Assembly (NCBI RefSeq): GCF_003945595.2
Contig: NW_024104407.1
Span: 434,001 to 498,000, forward strand
DNA from: Pipra filicauda
Lineage: Eukaryota > Chordata > Aves > Passeriformes > Pipridae
DNA length: 64,000 bases
Direction of reading: 5' to 3'
Of this stretch, positions 7,259 to 64,000 are shown one piece after another. The translations under genes were made by a program, and so were the position numbers. Each line of letters begins with the position of its first letter. Position 1 is the first letter of the stretch. The notes under the pieces are model-generated. The model was not told the origin of the DNA and made no database searches. It worked only from the letters and a program-made list of their open reading frames with translations.

Positions 7259-7618
7259 TGTAATTGGTTTCTGTGGCTGGGTTTTGGTAGTGGGGGCTGG
7301 TTATAGGGATGGCTTCTGCTAGAAGCTTCCCCTGTCCTGTGGAGGCAATGCCAGCCGGCTCCAGGATGGACTTCCTGCCGCTGGCCAAGGCCAAGCCAAT
7401 TAGGAGTAATGGTAACGCCTCTGTGATAACATATTTAAGAACAGAAGGTTGTTGCACAGAAGAAATTTCAGCCAGGGAAGGGCAGAGTGAGGACATGGGA
7501 ACAACAATGCAGACACCAAGGTCAGTGCAGAAGGAGGGCAGGAGGTGCTCCAGGCACCGGAGCTGAGGCCCTGCAGCCCGTGGTGCAGCCCATGGTGGGG
7601 CAGCTGTGCCCCTGCAGC

Positions 7619-7735
7619 CATGGAGGACCATCGGGGTGCAGAGACCCCCCTGCAGCCCATGGAGGACCATCAGGGTGCAGAGACCCCCCTGCAGCCCATG
7701 GAGGACCATCGGGGTGCAGAGACCCCCCTGCAGCC
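7619..7735 (+). repeat. 39-bp tandem repeat, three units, inside the LTR
   Basis: Units start at 7619, 7658 and 7697, each opening CATGGAGGACCATC and ending CTGCAGCC. A fourth start at 7736 diverges after CATGGAGGA. The three units are nearly identical; one visible change is CGGGG versus CAGGG. The unit is divisible by three, which is why open frames run through it in several phases. The near-identity points to recent unit duplication within an older LTR. Confidence 0.92.
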
Positions 7736-8237
7736 CATGGAGGAGCCCATGCTGGACCAGGTGGATGCACGAAGGAGGCCGTGACCCTATGGGAGGCCTA
7801 AGATGGAGCAGGGTCCTGCCAGAGACCTGCAGCCCATGGAGAGGGAAGCCCACACTGGAGCAGGTTTTTCCCGGGTAGGACTTGTGGCCCCTGTGGGGGA
7901 CCCATGTTGGTACAGCTCATTTGTGAAGGACTGCACCCCATGGAGGAGTGACCCACGGGACAGCAGTTTGGGAAGATCTGCTGCCAAAGGGATGGACTGA
8001 CACCATAGAGGTCCATCAAGGACTGTCTCCCATGGGAGGGACCCCACGGGAGCAGGGGAAGGACTCGTCTGCCTGAGCAGCGGCAGAAACAACAACTGAC
8101 TGTAACCCCCATTCCCCATCCCCCTGCACCACTGGGAGGGAGGAGGGAGGAGGGAGAACATGGAAGGACAGAGGGGTGGGAGGAAGGTGTTTTTAAGATT
8201 ATTTTACCTCTCACTCTTTTTCTCTGATCCCATTAGT

Positions 8238-10304: not shown

Positions 10305-10533
10305 TTGGGTTGAGACTGTTTCAGTTTGGTTTGTTTGCTTTTTGTTATTTTTTTTGTTTGTTTGGTTGTTTTTTGTTGTTGTTGTTTGTTTGGGTTTTTG
10401 TTTTGTTTTTGGTTTGGTTTGGGGATTTTTTTGTGGTTTTTTGTTTTGTTTTTTGTTTGTGGTGTATTGTTTTTGTTTGTTTTTGGTTTTGTTTTTTTTC
10501 TAGTTGGGTTTTGTTTTTTTTGTTTTGTTTTTC
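10305..10533 (+). repeat. T/G low-complexity tract (GTTTG/TTTTG-rich)
   Basis: About 230 bases composed almost only of T and G on the + strand, dominated by GTTT, GTTTT and GTTG motifs, with A and C nearly absent. Open frames of about 90-115 codons rich in Phe, Cys, Val and Leu, and Lys/Asn/Thr-rich frames on the opposite strand, are composition artefacts. Similar but shorter tracts occur at about 14518-14575, 15549-15591, 26943-27009 and 59374-59576, all with T/G on the same strand. Confidence 0.9.
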
Positions 10534-16857: not shown

Positions 16858-17237
16858 GATCACAGAATCACAGAATATGCTGAGTTGGAAGGTACCCACA
16901 AGGACCATCGATTCCAACCCTTAGCCCTGCACAGGACCATCCCCAAGAGTCACACCATGTGCCTGAGAGCATCATCTAAATGCTTCTTGAATTCTGTCAG
17001 GCTTGATGCTGTGACCACTTTCCTGGGGAACCTGTTCCAGCATCTAACAACCCTCTGGGTGAAGAACCTTTTCCTAACATCCAACCTAAACCTCCCCTGA
17101 GACAACTTCAGGCCATTCTCTCACATCCTGTCACTGGTCACCACAGAGAAGAGATCAGTGCCTGCCCCTCCTCTTCCCCTTGTGAGGAAATTGTAGAGGG
17201 TGATGAGGTCTCCCCTCAGTCTCCACCAGGCTTAACA
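16858..17237 (-). mobile_element. CR1 LINE, 5'-truncated 3' end
   Basis: Reading the + strand, the element opens with its 3' terminus (CACAGAATCACAGAATATGC), then GAGTTGGAAGG, the CR1 3' UTR, and the tail of ORF2 near 17160-17237 (GGTGATGAGGTCTCCCCTCAG). This is the antisense of a standard CR1 3' end, so the copy lies on the minus strand and is truncated at its 5' end, as most CR1 copies are. The plus-strand open frame across it (16840-17100) is not a gene. The next CR1, about 0.9 kb away, is in the same orientation but comes from a different CR1 subfamily. Confidence 0.93.
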
Positions 17238-18138
17238 GTATTAGGAAGAATGAAGGATTAAACATAATATTCATAAATTGCTTCCCCCTATTATGTATTT
17301 TCTGGTAGTCAACCTTTTATTTGAGATATAGTGATGGATTTTTTAAAAAATATGTTATTTGCTGTCAGTCAGATGTGACAAATAGAGGAAGAAACCTATA
17401 AACATCATTGGTTTTGCCTGGTCAGTCATCAGCCTACGTGCTCTCCAGGTGGATGGCACTAAATTTAGGGGAGAGGGTAAGGTGCCTTGGGTATTATCAA
17501 CAGTAAGTATTACAAATAGTGATTGACCTTAGTTACTTGAAAGAATTTTAATTTCTTGGATGCTATCTAGTACCTGTAACTTGTGGGGAAGCTTGGAACA
17601 GTATTTGAAGAAAGAGGCGCATTTTAATAAACCTATTATGTAAAGATTTTTTTGCTTGAAATTGATTTTTATTCCCCTCCACTTTCTCTTCTGTTCTCAA
17701 GAAAGTCTCCAGACCTCTTTCAGGTGATACACTGAACTCCCAATAGCTTGGGCAGTGGCTGACAATAGTTCTTAGCGGTTTACTCTAATATTTGTATTTT
17801 ATTAGTCAAGATGTCAGAAGTCTGCTGCCAGAGGTTTTGATAGAGGCATATGAATCCATGCCTTTTTTCTGATGACTGTCAGCTAAGAACAGAGGTGTGA
17901 CTCTGTGTCCTGGGTTGCCAGTGATTGCATTCAGTTAGAATCTTTGTCCATCCAGCATTTCTTATGAACCAGGTTCTAATCAGTACTGGAGCTGAAGGCT
18001 CCAAAGGGTAAGGGAGAAATATGTCCATCTTATACATGTTGACATTTTATCACAGAATAACATTGTATGTAGAGAAATAGATATATAAGTAATTTTTTAA
18101 TATCATAATTGTATGTTATTAATAATTAATATTATAGT
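17238..18138. other. Unique sequence between two CR1 copies
   Basis: AT-rich with no gene or repeat recognised. The last 80 bases before the next CR1 are very A/T-rich with repeated TTAATA/AATTAAT motifs, a plausible LINE target. Confidence 0.65.
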
Positions 18139-18425
18139 TATAGAATCGTAGAACTGTTTGGGTTGGAAGGGACCTTTAAAGGTCATCTGGTCCAACCCAT
18201 GTGCAGCGAGCAGCGACATCTTCCACTAGATCAGGTTGCTCAGAGCCTCATCCAACCTGACCTTGAATGTTTCCAGGGATGGGGCATTGACCACCTCTCT
18301 CTGCAATCTATGCTTGTATTTCATCACCCTTATCATAAAAAATTCCTTTCTTACATGTAGTCTGAACTTACCCACTCTGAATTTTAAACCACCACCCCTT
18401 GTCCTATGACTACAGGCCCTATCCA
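18139..18425 (-). mobile_element. CR1 LINE, 5'-truncated 3' end
   Basis: The + strand starts TATAGAATCGTAGAAC, then GTTTGGGTTGGAAGGGACC, the hallmark of an inverted CR1 3' terminus. The CR1 3' UTR and the end of ORF2 follow, up to about 18425 (CTTGTCCTATGACTACAGGCC). Compared with typical CR1 it has scattered substitutions and loses similarity after about 290 bases. It carries no functional coding region. Confidence 0.93.
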
Positions 18426-33000: not shown

Positions 33001-33344
33001 GGTTTTTTTCTCAGAATATTAAACCACTTGTCCCTGAAATCATATTTTAACTTCTATAGGAAATGTTGAGATTTCCAGGAGCTGCTGGTTGTTGCTAAGT
33101 ACCGTGTTAAATTTCTGTATAATACTCAAAGGAGTAAAGGGCAGGGGAAAGATGATCTATCTGAACTACCCAGACACAACTAGTTGCTGTCTTTTGTTCA
33201 GAAAGGCATCTAGAGAAATGTTAGAGAATTTTCTGAAGGCTGGTATTTTCTTGCTTCACCTTCTCACTCTGGAAAAATAAGGCCAGAATATTACTGTGTT
33301 TGAATTGGAAATAACAAGAAATCCTTCAGCTTCCTGCTCCACTG
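27010..33344. other. Unique sequence with possible regulatory DNA, no gene recognised
   Basis: No recognisable repeat or coding exon. The part at 28000-29100 is repeat-free, less AT-rich than its surroundings and contains several CpGs and homeodomain-type ATTA/TAAT motifs, so it is a reasonable place for conserved non-coding DNA; that is inference. A CTCF-like core lies at 30799-30815. The rest, including 31200-33340, shows nothing I can name. Confidence 0.6.
30799..30815 (+). promoter_or_regulatory. Candidate CTCF-binding core
   Basis: The string CACTAGGTGGAGCT at 30801-30814 differs at one position from the classical vertebrate CTCF core CACTAGGTGGCGCT. It is preceded by GA instead of the preferred CC. 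It lies outside any recognised repeat. Binding is inferred from the motif only. Confidence 0.35.
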
Positions 33345-34219
33345 AATCTCACAGCCCATCTCCTTGGTGACAACACCAAGCTGAGTGGCGCAGTTGATAA
33401 GGCTGAAGGACAGGATGCCTTCCAGAGGGATGTGGACAAGCTCAAGAAGTGGGCTCATGGGAACCTGGTGCGGTCCAGCAAAGCCAAATGTGCCTGGGTC
33501 AGCTGTCAATCCAGGCTGGGGGATGAACAGATCAAGAGCAACCCTGCCAAGAGGGCCGTGGGGGTGCTGGTGGATGAGAGGCTGGGCATAACCTGGCAAT
33601 GTTCACTCACAGCCCAGAAAGCCAATTGTATCCTGGGCCACAATAAAAGCAGCATTGCCAACAGGTTGAGGGAGGTGATTCTCCCCCTTTATTTTGCCCT
33701 TGTGACACCCCACTTGGAGTACAGGGTATAGGTCTGGGGCCTCCACACAAAAAAGACATGGGCCTGTTGGAGCAGGTCCAGAGGAGGTCCATGAAGATGA
33801 TCCAAGGGTTGAAACACCTTTTCTACAAGGACAGGCTGAGAGAGTTGAGATTGTTCAGCCAGGAGAGGAGAAGACACTGGGGAGGCCATATAGAAGCCTT
33901 TCAGTACTTAAAGGGGCCTTACAAGAAGGCTGGAGAGAAACATTTGACAAGGCTATGTAAGTGATAGGACAAGAGGGAATGGTTTTAAACTAAAGGAGGG
34001 AATGTTTAGATTAAATATAAGAAAGGAGTTTTTTACAGTGAGGGTGGTAAAACACGGGAACAGGTTTTCCAGAAAGGTGGTGGATGTCCCATCCTTGGCA
34101 ACATTCGAGGTTGAGTTGGACAGGACTCTAAACAACCTGATCTAGTTGAAGATGTGGCAGGGAGGTTAGAATAGATGACCTTAAAAGGTCCCTTCCAACT
34201 CAAACTATTCTGTGATTCC
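33345..34219 (+). mobile_element. CR1 LINE, 5'-truncated copy with the C-terminal reverse transcriptase region and 3' UTR
   Basis: This is the longest CR1 3' end in the window. It starts near GACAACACCAAGCTGAGTGG, a conserved point in the CR1 RT thumb region, and runs in the sense direction through the ORF2 C-terminus and 3' UTR to CCTTCCAACTCAAACTATTC and TGTGATTCC at 34219. Conserved CR1 peptides are legible in pieces: GVLVDERLG, KANCILG, REVILPLYFALVTPHLEY in the frame of 33432-33731, and LLEQVQRRSMKMI and LKHLFYKDRLRELRLFSQE after a frame change (frame of 33758-33964). A stop at about 33729-33731 and the shift show it is dead. Divergence is moderate. Confidence 0.95.
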
Positions 34220-37459: not shown

Positions 37460-38300
37460 TAAAGGGCTGTATTTGGTATAGGTGGTGAGGTTGATGGACT
37501 CCAGAGGAAGGGCTGTGGACTTCATGAGAAAAGGCCAGGGGCTGTCCTCTGGGTGATACATCTGATTCCAGCCAGCTCCAGTGGATCCACTGCAGGGCAC
37601 AGCCGAGTCCCACAGCCCGGATGGTGGTGCCTCAGGAAAAGCCTGTTTAAGAAAGGAAGAAACACTGCCCTACAGCAACTGAGGGGAAAACGCTCTGAAA
37701 CACCAAGGTCAGAGAAGGAGGGGAGGAGGTGCTCCAGGTACTGGAGCAGAGATTCCTCTTCAGCCCTTGGAGCAGACCATGCTGGAGCAGTCCATGTAGG
37801 ACACCATGTCAGAGCACGTGGATGTGCCCTAAAGTAAGTTGCAGCCTGTGAAGAGCCTACACAGGAGTGGATAGTTCCTGAAGAGCTGCAACCTATGGGA
37901 GGACCCAAGTTGGATCAGGGGAAAAGTGTGAAGAAGATGGAGCAGCAGAGAGGAGTTGTTATGGACTGAGCACAGTCCCCATTGACCAACGCCCTGTGTC
38001 CCACATAGTGAGAATGATGGGGAAGGAGTTGGGAGTGAAGTAAAGCCTGGGGAAAGAAGGGACATGGGGAGCAGGCAATTTCAATCATTTTGTCTTTTTT
38101 TTTTTTTCTGTCCAAATCTACATTAATTTGCAATAATTTAAATAAATTTTCCCCAAGTTCACTCTGTCTTGTCCATGACAGTAACTGTTAAGTCATCTCT
38201 CTGTCTTTATCTTAACACAAGAATTTGCATCCTATTTTCTCCTCCTGTTCTGCTATGGCTGGGTGGGTGTCTGGCTGCTGGCCAAGGTCGACCTACCACA
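37460..38300 (+). mobile_element. Diverged, internally deleted LTR of the same family as 7259-8432 (copy 2)
   Basis: Homology to copy 1 is visible at several anchors in the same order: CCAGCCAGCTCCAG near 37571, ACACCAAGGTCAG near 37700 followed by GGAGGAGGTGCTCCAGG, the CCTATGGGAGGACCCA type unit near 37895, AATAAA at 38141-38146, and the 3' end CGACCTACCACA at about 38300. It is about 330 bases shorter than copy 1 because most of the CATGGAGG-type internal repeats are missing. The left boundary is approximate and I could not confirm a target-site duplication. The substitution load is much higher than expected from a recent insertion. ORFs crossing it on both strands are artefacts. Confidence 0.85.
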
Positions 38301-41261: not shown

Positions 41262-42925
41262 GAAGCAGCCTTGCCTCTCGTGCTCAGAGTCTGAAGGTCA
41301 CAAGGTACATCACTGGAAGACTGTGCTCTCTGCTCAGGTCTGTTTGGGAGCATAGAGATTGGGGTTTACAGGGGAAGAGTCCCCATCCCAAATTTCATCC
41401 CGAGTTGTAACCTTGCTTGGCTGTAACCTAACAGTGTTAGAACTATTAAGTTCACTTCCTAGATCCTCTGTCTCAAAGATTTATAGACATGACTGGTGGA
41501 ATACTTGGCTTTTTCCAGTGAATTAATGTTATAATGAGTATGATAGGACAAGTAGGCTTCTTCCTTTATCAGGTCTCCAGAAATACAAGAAAAAGAATAT
41601 ATCCAGGGAAACTGAAAAGCAGTTCCTAGAGAAAGGAGAACCATTCTTAACCTTAGGAACACTTTCTTTCTAGGGCTTGTTTAACATAGTTATTTAATGG
41701 TCCCATGGTCTTTATAAAATTATTAAATTAAATCAGTTTTCTTTATTTTGGTACAATTATGTTTTAATTTTATTAATCATTGCTTAACATTTTTTAAAGT
41801 AATGTATTTCTTTTGTTCTTGTCTTTCTTGTTATTTTCACCTATTTTTAATTTTTAATATTTACAATTTGCTACATCTTCCATGCACTTTGATTCCTTTT
41901 TTTATTTGTTTTAAGCATTGTATTTTATGATGCCTGTAGGTAATATTCAAGATTGAAGGTGCCAGTAGTTAATAATTACATTAAATTTAATGCATATCAT
42001 TCTCCAGAGATGTAAAAGAAATTGTTTGGCAGTTGAAGCTCTCAGGTAAAAACTAAAGTGACATACATATTTCATGCATCACATCAACCTGTTTTGCATG
42101 CCACTATCATCCTGCCTGAAGTTGTGCAAGATCAGATTCAAACCATGCAAAACAAACAGGACAGGTATGTTGCTGCCACTTTGAACTGTGTGTATCACAT
42201 TGACTCTTCTGTCAGTTATGCTTAAACTGAAAAATAACCAGTGTATGTGGTCTTGGTCACCTCCCAGCCTTACTCAATAGCTGTGGTCGTGTTTAACAGT
42301 ATGTAAAATTGACCAGTCTCTACAGCCCACCCACTTTGTTATTAATATAATTGTTGAAAATCAATCATTCCTTAGATCTTGGATTTATTTCAGGTTTGTG
42401 TAATTTCTATTGCATACTGAACCACCTTCTCCTGCTCATCAGCCCTTGCCACAGTTGCTGGAAACCTGGCTAGAATTACCCCTCCAAGAGGACCCTCTCT
42501 AGCAAAGACAGCTCTCTCTAGCTTAGCATATTCTTTGGCTCTCCATTATTTTGAGCTTTCTTGCATGTTGTCACATATAGAAGTAGTAATTTTATTATGA
42601 ATTCTCAAGTTACAAAGAGCAGTTTTTAAAAAGAGAAAGAAGGTTTCCTTGGATTTATATTCTCTAAGACTTAGTGGGTTTTTTTCCCCTACATTTTGCA
42701 TATTGTCACTTCTGCAGCAGAAGCAAAAAGTGACTTTATCCACTTCACCTGTGATACTCTTTTAAGTACATTTTGATTTTCCAGTGATGTGGCCCCAGAA
42801 ATCTGCAAGTTAGACTATCTCAATCTCCTCCTAGGATCATGGATTTACAGCCTCCAATTTATTCTCCTCATGTGAAGCTCTGTGAAGCTTGTCTAAACTT
42901 ACTAGAAGAGTAGAAATTTCTCTGT

Positions 42926-43070
42926 TATAGAATCATAGAATGCTTTGGGTTGGAAGGGACCTTGAAGATCATCTAGTTCCAGCTGTCCTACTATGGACAA
43001 AGACACCTTCCACTAGATCAGGTTGTTCAAAGCCCAATATAACATGGCCTTAAACACTTCCAGGGATGTG
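42926..43070 (-). mobile_element. CR1 LINE, short 3' fragment
   Basis: The + strand starts TATAGAATCATAGAATGC, then TTTGGGTTGGAAGGGACCTT and the CR1 3' UTR, ending at about CTTCCAGGGATGTG. Only about 145 bases of the element's 3' end remain. The intact TAGAATCATAGAA terminus shows that truncation is at the 5' side, as expected from incomplete target-primed reverse transcription. Confidence 0.93.
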
Positions 43071-60239: not shown

Positions 60240-60572
60240 TGTCTCTTGCGCTGGGTTTGTGTGGCAGAGTTTTGGTAGCAGATGAGCTGCAGAGGTGGAT
60301 TCTGTGAGAAGCTGCAAGAAGCAGCCCATATCTGACAAAGCCAAACCCAGACAGCTCTGAGATGGATCTGCCACTGTCCAAGGCCAAGCCCATCAGTAGC
60401 ACCCCAGGGACAAAATAGTTAAGAGGGTAAAAAAGTTGTTGCGCTGAAGCAATTGAAACCAGAGAAGAGAGGAGGGAGGATATGTGAGAGCAACAGCCCT
60501 GCAGACACCAAGGTCAGTGAAGACAGAGAGGGAAAAGGTCCTCCAGGTGTTAAAGCTGAGATTCCCATGCTG
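60240..60572 (+). mobile_element. 5' part of an LTR of the same family as 7259-8432 (copy 3, truncated)
   Basis: The start TG at 60240 leads into GTGTGGCAGAGTTTTGGTAG, matching copy 1 near 7271-7290. Shared anchors follow in order: CTGTCCAAGGCCAAGCCCAT near 60374, AGACACCAAGGTCAGTG near 60505, and CCTCCAGG then GCTGAGATTCCC near 60540-60570. After that the homology stops, so the CATGGAGG-rich middle, the AATAAA and the 3' end seen in copies 1 and 2 are absent. The flanks give no target-site duplication. Orientation is plus, like the other two copies. Confidence 0.82.
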
Positions 60573-62544: not shown

Positions 62545-62545
62545 T

Positions 62546-62559
62546 TAATCATCATCATG
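62546..62559 (-). repeat. GAT-repeat tail at the 3' end of the LINE
   Basis: On the element's sense strand the sequence just after the hairpin reads ATGATGATGATTAAC. Short tandem-repeat tails instead of poly(A) are typical of RTE-type and some other LINE clades. The tail marks the probable insertion boundary near 62545-62550. Confidence 0.6.
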
Positions 62560-62565
62560 GCTAGA

Positions 62566-62579
62566 CTTCGCGAACGAAG
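62566..62579 (-). other. Hairpin in the LINE 3' UTR
   Basis: Arms CTTCG (62566-62570) and CGAAG (62575-62579) form a 5-bp stem with a 4-base loop. In the element's sense RNA the loop reads UUCG. It lies between the ORF stop and the GAT-repeat tail. In several LINE clades a 3' stem-loop is recognised by the RT; that role is an inference here. Confidence 0.6.
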
Positions 62580-62593
62580 ATTTGGGGAGGGCT

Positions 62594-64000
62594 CTACCCA
62601 TGTTTGTTGCAAGCGCGCTGGTGGCTAAAAAGGCCAAAAAGAGATAGGCACGTCCGGTTGCAAAAGGCACAGCAGAAGGACTTCTTAGATGGTAAATTCT
62701 GCAAGGCACGATTCTTTCTGCATTGTCTTTTCTCCTCGAGAGTGATCCTGCGTGCTTTCTCAAAAGCACCAGCAGCGTTATAGATGGTGTGTCTCCAGGC
62801 CTCCCGACTGAAGGCCAGAGTAGACCAGTTAAGATGATCAATATGGCCAAGGCTGAGATGTTGTTTCAGGGAGTCCTTGTATCTTCTCTTTGGGGCTCCT
62901 CTCATGCGGCAGCCGGTGGCAAGTTCACCATAAAGCAAGATCTTAGGGAGGCGGTGGTCCTTCATCCTGGAGACGTGCCCTGCCCAGTGCAGCTGTGTTC
63001 TCAGCAACATGGCCTCAATACTTGTGACTGCTGCTTATTCTAGAACAGATGTATTGGTCACATAATCTGACCAGTGGATGTTTAGGACTGTGCAGAGACA
63101 GCATTGATGGAAGCATTCTAGGAGACGCAGGTGGTGGTGGTAGATGACCCATGATTCAGATCCATATAAGAGAGTAGACAGCACTATGGCTCTGTAAACG
63201 CTGATCTTTGTACTTTTCTTCAAGTGTTTACTTTGCCAAACTCTTTTATGAAGCTTTCCAAAAGCACTATATGCCTTAGCTAACCTGTTGTCTATCTCTC
63301 CATCAATCTTACCATCCGAGGAGATGAGGCTACCAAGGTAATTAAACTGCTGGACTGATTTGAGCTCTAATTGGCCAATGGTGATGTGGGGATGATGGAA
63401 GACTTCCTGAGGTGCAGGTTGATAGAGAACTTCTGTCTTCTTTAAGCTGACTTCCAGTCCAAAGAGCTCAGCAGCATCTGCAAAGCAGGATGTTAAACGC
63501 TGCAGGGCTGCTTCTGTGTGTGCAATAAGGGCAACGTCATCAGCATAAAGCAGCTCCCGGACAAGATGGTTTAAGGTCTTGGTGTGGGCCTTCAGTCGTC
63601 TTAGGTTGAAAAGGTTTCCATCAGCACGATATCGAATGTAGATACCGTCCTGATCCTCGAGGTCTGCTGTGGCCCTTTGGAGCATCATGCTGAAAAAGAC
63701 TGTGAATAGGGTTGGTGCAAGAACGCAGCCTTGTTTTACAGCACTGGTTATTAGAAAGGGCTCAGAAAGTGCATTTGCCATATCTGACTTGGCCGTGCTG
63801 ATCCTCATGGAGTGAGATGATCATTTTAAGGAACTTGGGGGGACAACCTAAACGTTCCAAAATCTGCCATAGACCTTTTCTGCTCACAGTATCAAAAGCC
63901 TTGGTCAGGTCAACAAAGGTTAAATAGAGACCTTTGTTCTGTTCCCTACACTTCTCTTGCAGTTGTCTGAGAACAAATACCATGTCTATGGTACTCCTGT
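62594..64000 (-). pseudogene. LINE ORF2: reverse transcriptase plus C-terminal CCHC finger, partial, two lesions
   Basis: This is the retrotransposon polyprotein that would copy its own RNA at a nicked target (target-primed reverse transcription). Three frame segments line up. 63762-63983 holds RT motif A (FVDLTKAFDTV), and the frame extends upstream as STID to the window edge. 63038-63808 holds AVKQGCVLAP, the catalytic YADD (codons at 63536-63547), the LKKTEV and FNYLGSLISSD motifs, LLYGSESW and a thumb. 62594-63034 holds LHWAGHVSRM, LLYGEL, RYKDSLKQHL and a finger C-x2-C-x12-H-x3-C near the end. Lesion 1 is a one-base frame change at about 63771-63785, probably an extra T in the TTT at 63774-63776. 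Lesion 2 is an in-frame TAA at 63035-63037, after which the same frame continues. Otherwise the frame is intact for about 460 codons, so inactivation is slight and recent, or the lesions are sequencing errors. Confidence 0.85.

Follow-up and report, generated by a model that had tools for sequence, protein, structure and literature searches.

We analyzed a stretch of 64,000 nucleotides, hereafter the window, the right-hand end of which carries coding remains of a reverse transcriptase (RT) on the minus strand, followed by a short 3′ UTR. The features of this region are as follows.

62545..64000, minus strand: 3′ part of a LINE copy, almost certainly AviRTE, which runs on beyond the end of the window
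63762..63998, minus strand: upstream part of the RT, its frame running open to the end of the window (RVT_1, E 3.3e-08, profile positions 48–115)
63038..63820, minus strand: RT palm and following region (RVT_1, E 5.6e-12, profile positions 110–202)
62594..63034, minus strand: C-terminal stretch of the ORF, with a zinc-finger-like Cys/His end and a terminal TAG, preceded by an in-frame stop
62545..62593, minus strand: 3′ UTR with a small inverted repeat and a GAT tail, read from the sequence, at most 49 nt
63593..63614, minus strand: site of primer AviRTEfull-4F, 3 mismatches in 22
63567..63587, plus strand: site of primer AviRTEfull-3R, 2 mismatches in 21
62551..62569, plus strand: site of primer AviRTEfull-4R, 2 mismatches in 19

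Reverse transcriptase and 3′ end of the element

The three minus-strand frames, of 78 codons (63762–63998), 261 codons stop to stop (63038–63820) and 146 codons (62597–63034), are parts of one RT and its C-terminus. Both RT pieces scored above the Pfam gathering score for RVT_1, and the palm part (63038–63820) contains what we take to be the YADD motif. For 62594–63034 on the same strand Pfam returned sub-threshold matches only, and one solved-structure match (8gh6_A) was weak (E 0.0065). None of 500 mononucleotide shuffles reached a stop-free run of 261 codons (shuffle mean 100, largest 199); the coding stretch is real and not a product of chance. The visible part of the copy is broken, with one frameshift and one premature stop: the frame of the palm part is shifted relative to that of the upstream RT part, the change falling near 63771–63782, and a single in-frame stop separates 63038–63820 from 62597–63034, through which a manakin relative (P0007) aligns unbroken. 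Multiple frameshifts and stops are also described for all full-length AviRTE copies examined in PMC4844689.

The ORF ends in a TAG at 62594–62596, leaving at most 49 nt, GAT tail included, from there to 62545, and the last base of the element can be placed to within 62545–62550. This length agrees with the 3′ UTR of around 40 bp given for AviRTE (PMC4844689). The initial annotation had described this end as a hairpin plus a GAT repeat. The inverted repeat CTTCG/CGAAG (62566–62570 and 62575–62579) and the GAT units (three, below the tandem-repeat finder's length and read from the sequence) are indeed present, whereas the hairpin proved no stronger than expected by chance, with 29 of 200 shuffles folding equally well or better, and the CTTCG/CGAAG stem is absent from the minimum-energy fold of the stretch. 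The 3′ ends of CR1 elements carry ATTCTATG repeats; this octamer had two matches in the window (16861 and 42926) and none near 62545.

Published primers and relatives of the element

AviRTE is a LINE of the RTE superfamily that was acquired horizontally by several groups of birds and is present in 141 to 8,306 copies per avian genome, with a single ORF of around 3.2 kb that includes an endonuclease, and with a 5′ UTR of around 800 bp (PMC4844689). Consensus sequences from manakin, antbird, tinamou, trogon, mesite, hornbill, hummingbird, parrots and Loa are deposited in Repbase. A read-based test in PMC6542046 found the AviRTE of two birds and of Loa not to be contamination. All ten AviRTE primers printed in that paper were searched for in the window, allowing up to 3 mismatches. 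Three of the ten matched, with 55 of 62 bases identical and in the expected order: 4R reads into the element from its 3′ end, and the site of 3R is found shortly 3′ of that of 4F, fitting the overlapping amplicons of the paper. In shuffled windows, 4R found a match in 3 of 100, and 4F and 3R in none of 100. The seven others (int-F, int-R, 3F, 2R, 2F, 1F and 1R) had no match in the window within 3 mismatches and, judging from the primer numbering, their sites would be expected 5′ of the visible part, past position 64000. Nucleotide identity between AviRTE subfamilies is 83–99% (PMC4844689).

A protein search with the RT piece retrieved 871 proteins, and the figures given here are from the best 120 of these. 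Bird names were found on 13 of the best 120, and all belonged to Pipridae (Manacus 3, Corapipo 1, Pseudopipra 1), Tyrannidae (Myiozetetes 1, Pitangus 4) or Thamnophilidae (Willisornis 3). These three are suboscine families. Within the same best 120, four manakin matches were 88, 88, 90 and 90% identical over 83–95% of the query and a fifth was 77% identical over 63%, while the Myiozetetes protein reached 86%, and those of Pitangus and Willisornis 77–83% and 72–83%, respectively, over 57–73% of the query. Among the matches listed, the top protein without a bird name was P0005 (77%) and the top one with a non-bird name came from Nucella (75% over 65%). The other named matches among those listed were from fishes, molluscs, crustaceans, a sea urchin and lancelets, in agreement with the placement of AviRTE among the RTEs of aquatic animals (PMC4844689). 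One turtle protein was found in a further protein search.

The search with the C-terminal piece was dominated by birds, which accounted for 37 of 51 proteins (Willisornis 30, Pitangus 3, Amazona 3, Manacus 1). The manakin protein was the best match across the whole query, at 82%, and the parrot fragments were 65–68% identical. None of these database relatives is labelled AviRTE, and we infer their membership of the family from their hosts (suboscines and a psittacid parrot) and from the primers. Five suboscine gene models (P0004, P0078, P0150, P0171 and P0208) hold pieces of the AviRTE element; three of them are fused to other sequence, and two carry the names of host genes (AlkB homologue and craniofacial development protein 2). 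The suboscine models with AviRTE pieces are likely annotation errors.

Phylogenetic position and repeat context

Trees were built from hand-picked rows to which the window was added, comprising 38 of the 237 fetched proteins (39 rows), 16 proteins (17 rows, the longer ones) and 29 proteins (30 rows, including 13 unnamed ENA proteins). Two of the three Amazona fragments and a minority of those from Willisornis were included. The bird rows and the window formed one group at 100/100 in each of the three trees, placing the window with copies from AviRTE-bearing birds. The window fell among the manakin rows at 91/84, 92/89 and 94/88 with 39, 17 and 30 rows, respectively; none of the three trees has a star on the whole group of manakins plus window. 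Grouping the window with the antbird rows was rejected (p 0.0037, 17 rows), as was grouping it with the tyrant flycatcher row P0002 (p 0.020). Its grouping with both tyrant rows was also rejected (p 0.0016, 17 rows), a result that says little because a clade of the two tyrant rows by themselves was likewise rejected (p 0.042). A manakin clade without the window was not rejected in the AU test with 39 rows (p 0.30) and gave p 0.051 with 17 rows. At five manakin-type columns, defined as those where at least 75% of the manakin rows differ from both the tyrant and the antbird rows, the window has the manakin residue in four and another residue in one; at seven columns where antbirds alone differ, it shares the antbird residue in one.

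Elsewhere in the window, CR1-type fragments at around 33315–34218, 18137–18411 and 42924–43068 are alike by self-comparison and have octamer-like ends; the label CR1 is our assumption, made on recognizing the translated frames. The octamer-like match at 16861 is additional to these. Pfam searches of eight other ORFs, including two frames of a CR1-type fragment, gave nothing up to E 0.1. A second, dispersed repeat family occurs at 7343–7766, 37700–37790 and 60339–60565. The element had been noted as lying around 2 kb from a bird-type LTR fragment: the repeat at 60339–60565 is real, with similar stretches at 7343–7554 and 37700–37756, and it lies 1,980 bases from 62545, while its LTR-like character is presumed by us from recognition alone. 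Inside the dispersed repeat there is a 39-bp tandem unit in 3.5 copies (7609–7744), and part of the repeat resembles the tail of the Manacus candei gene model P0078, which also contains AviRTE (17 of 43 residues, E 2e-06 in a single comparison). An imperfect T/G-rich tandem array of around 200 bases lies at 10324–10532. Pattern scans of viral and genome contigs matched 14 and 66 stretches, respectively, none of which was confirmed. The repeats of the window are most naturally read as those of a bird genome.

Neither the element nor its 3′ end occurs a second time in the window, the only matches being two of 12 bases, and no Rfam match at the gathering score and no tRNA gene was found there; hence no AviRTE-mobilised SINE was seen in the window.

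Identity, origin and comparison with known elements

We conclude that 62545–64000 on the minus strand is, in all probability, a broken AviRTE copy in the genome of a suboscine passerine, most likely a manakin. The finding amounts to a single broken copy from a family that has been described before, most likely in a known host group, and retrieves from raw sequence an already published instance of horizontal LINE acquisition in birds. The AviRTE membership suggested in the initial annotation is upheld by the published primers and by the nearest named proteins, which are suboscine bird copies. The expectation that the element would narrow the host to AviRTE-bearing birds is likewise borne out, the element itself pointing most probably to manakins.

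LINE proteins nick DNA and then reverse-transcribe their own RNA from its 3′ end, a process known as target-primed reverse transcription. The copy may have arisen in this way: an active AviRTE would have produced its RNA and a protein carrying both endonuclease and RT, which would have nicked host DNA, and reverse transcription would have begun at the 3′ end of the RNA, leaving a GAT-ending 3′ terminus at around 62545. The inserted copy would then have decayed, acquiring the frameshift and the premature stop of its visible part. That the boundary is the element's own 3′ terminus fits reverse transcription from the 3′ end of the RNA. The endonuclease, the 5′ end and any target-site duplication fall past 64000, outside the window; in one published case the duplication measured 13 bp (PMC4844689).

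A new LINE lineage in birds, the alternative raised at the outset, is not supported by these comparisons. That the element belongs to a different, undescribed RTE-like lineage is extremely unlikely, given the three primer matches, the protein identity of up to 90% to manakin copies and the 100/100 support for a bird group containing the window. AU tests gave mixed evidence against placing the window outside the bird rows: a place on the non-avian side was not rejected with 39 rows (p 0.15), which would suit such a lineage, whereas with the longer rows of the 17-row set it was rejected (p 0.03). An assignment to CR1 or to an old amniote L2 element appears vanishingly improbable. CR1 is the common bird LINE, with CR1-type fragments in this very window, but comparison with one of them, itself only part of an RT, was not significant (E 0.19), CR1 appears in none of the protein-match names listed (some automatic ones read jockey or LINE-1), and the element's 3′ end has no CR1-type octamer. 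The original call of a non-CR1, RTE-like LINE in an apparent bird genome is supported.

The sequence could also stem from a filarial-nematode AviRTE or from a chimeric assembly join rather than from an element integrated in a bird genome, and AviRTE is indeed known from Loa, Brugia and Wuchereria (PMC4844689). We regard this as very unlikely. Among the database proteins compared (bird and non-nematode rows), the nearest sequences are those of manakins, and the table of PMC4844689 gives a difference of 0.169 per site between the consensus sequences of Loa and Manacus. The join falls at the 3′ terminus of the element itself, at the primer 4R site, as would an insertion, and the CR1-type fragments are present in the same window. 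There is, finally, a small chance that a manakin-type AviRTE is carried here by a bird that belongs to none of the seven published AviRTE lineages, which, if true, would mean one more horizontal transfer.

The broken AviRTE copy can be set against four known groups of elements. CR1 is a non-LTR retrotransposon too and is represented by fragments in the window, but differs in showing no significant RT match and in having another 3′ end. BovB also belongs to the RTE superfamily and is described as a distant relative of AviRTE (PMC4844689). Next to the bird rows stands a tight set of ENA proteins (P0005, P0006, P0008, P0022, P0125, P0140, P0147 and P0148), closely alike RT proteins of 293–629 aa. 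These are of the same protein family and share 72–76% identity with the window where they align, but they form a tight group of their own (100/98) that adjoins the bird rows at 92/85, a node that was not starred. Their short branches suggest that the element was active recently, and their host would be a lead on the source of AviRTE. With manakin-type AviRTE, of which the endonuclease half and the 5′ UTR would lie beyond 64000, there is no difference in the part seen: the RT is up to 90% and the C-terminus 82% identical to manakin proteins, the primer sites are present, and the copy shares the short 3′ UTR, the GAT tail and an ORF broken like those of the published full-length copies.
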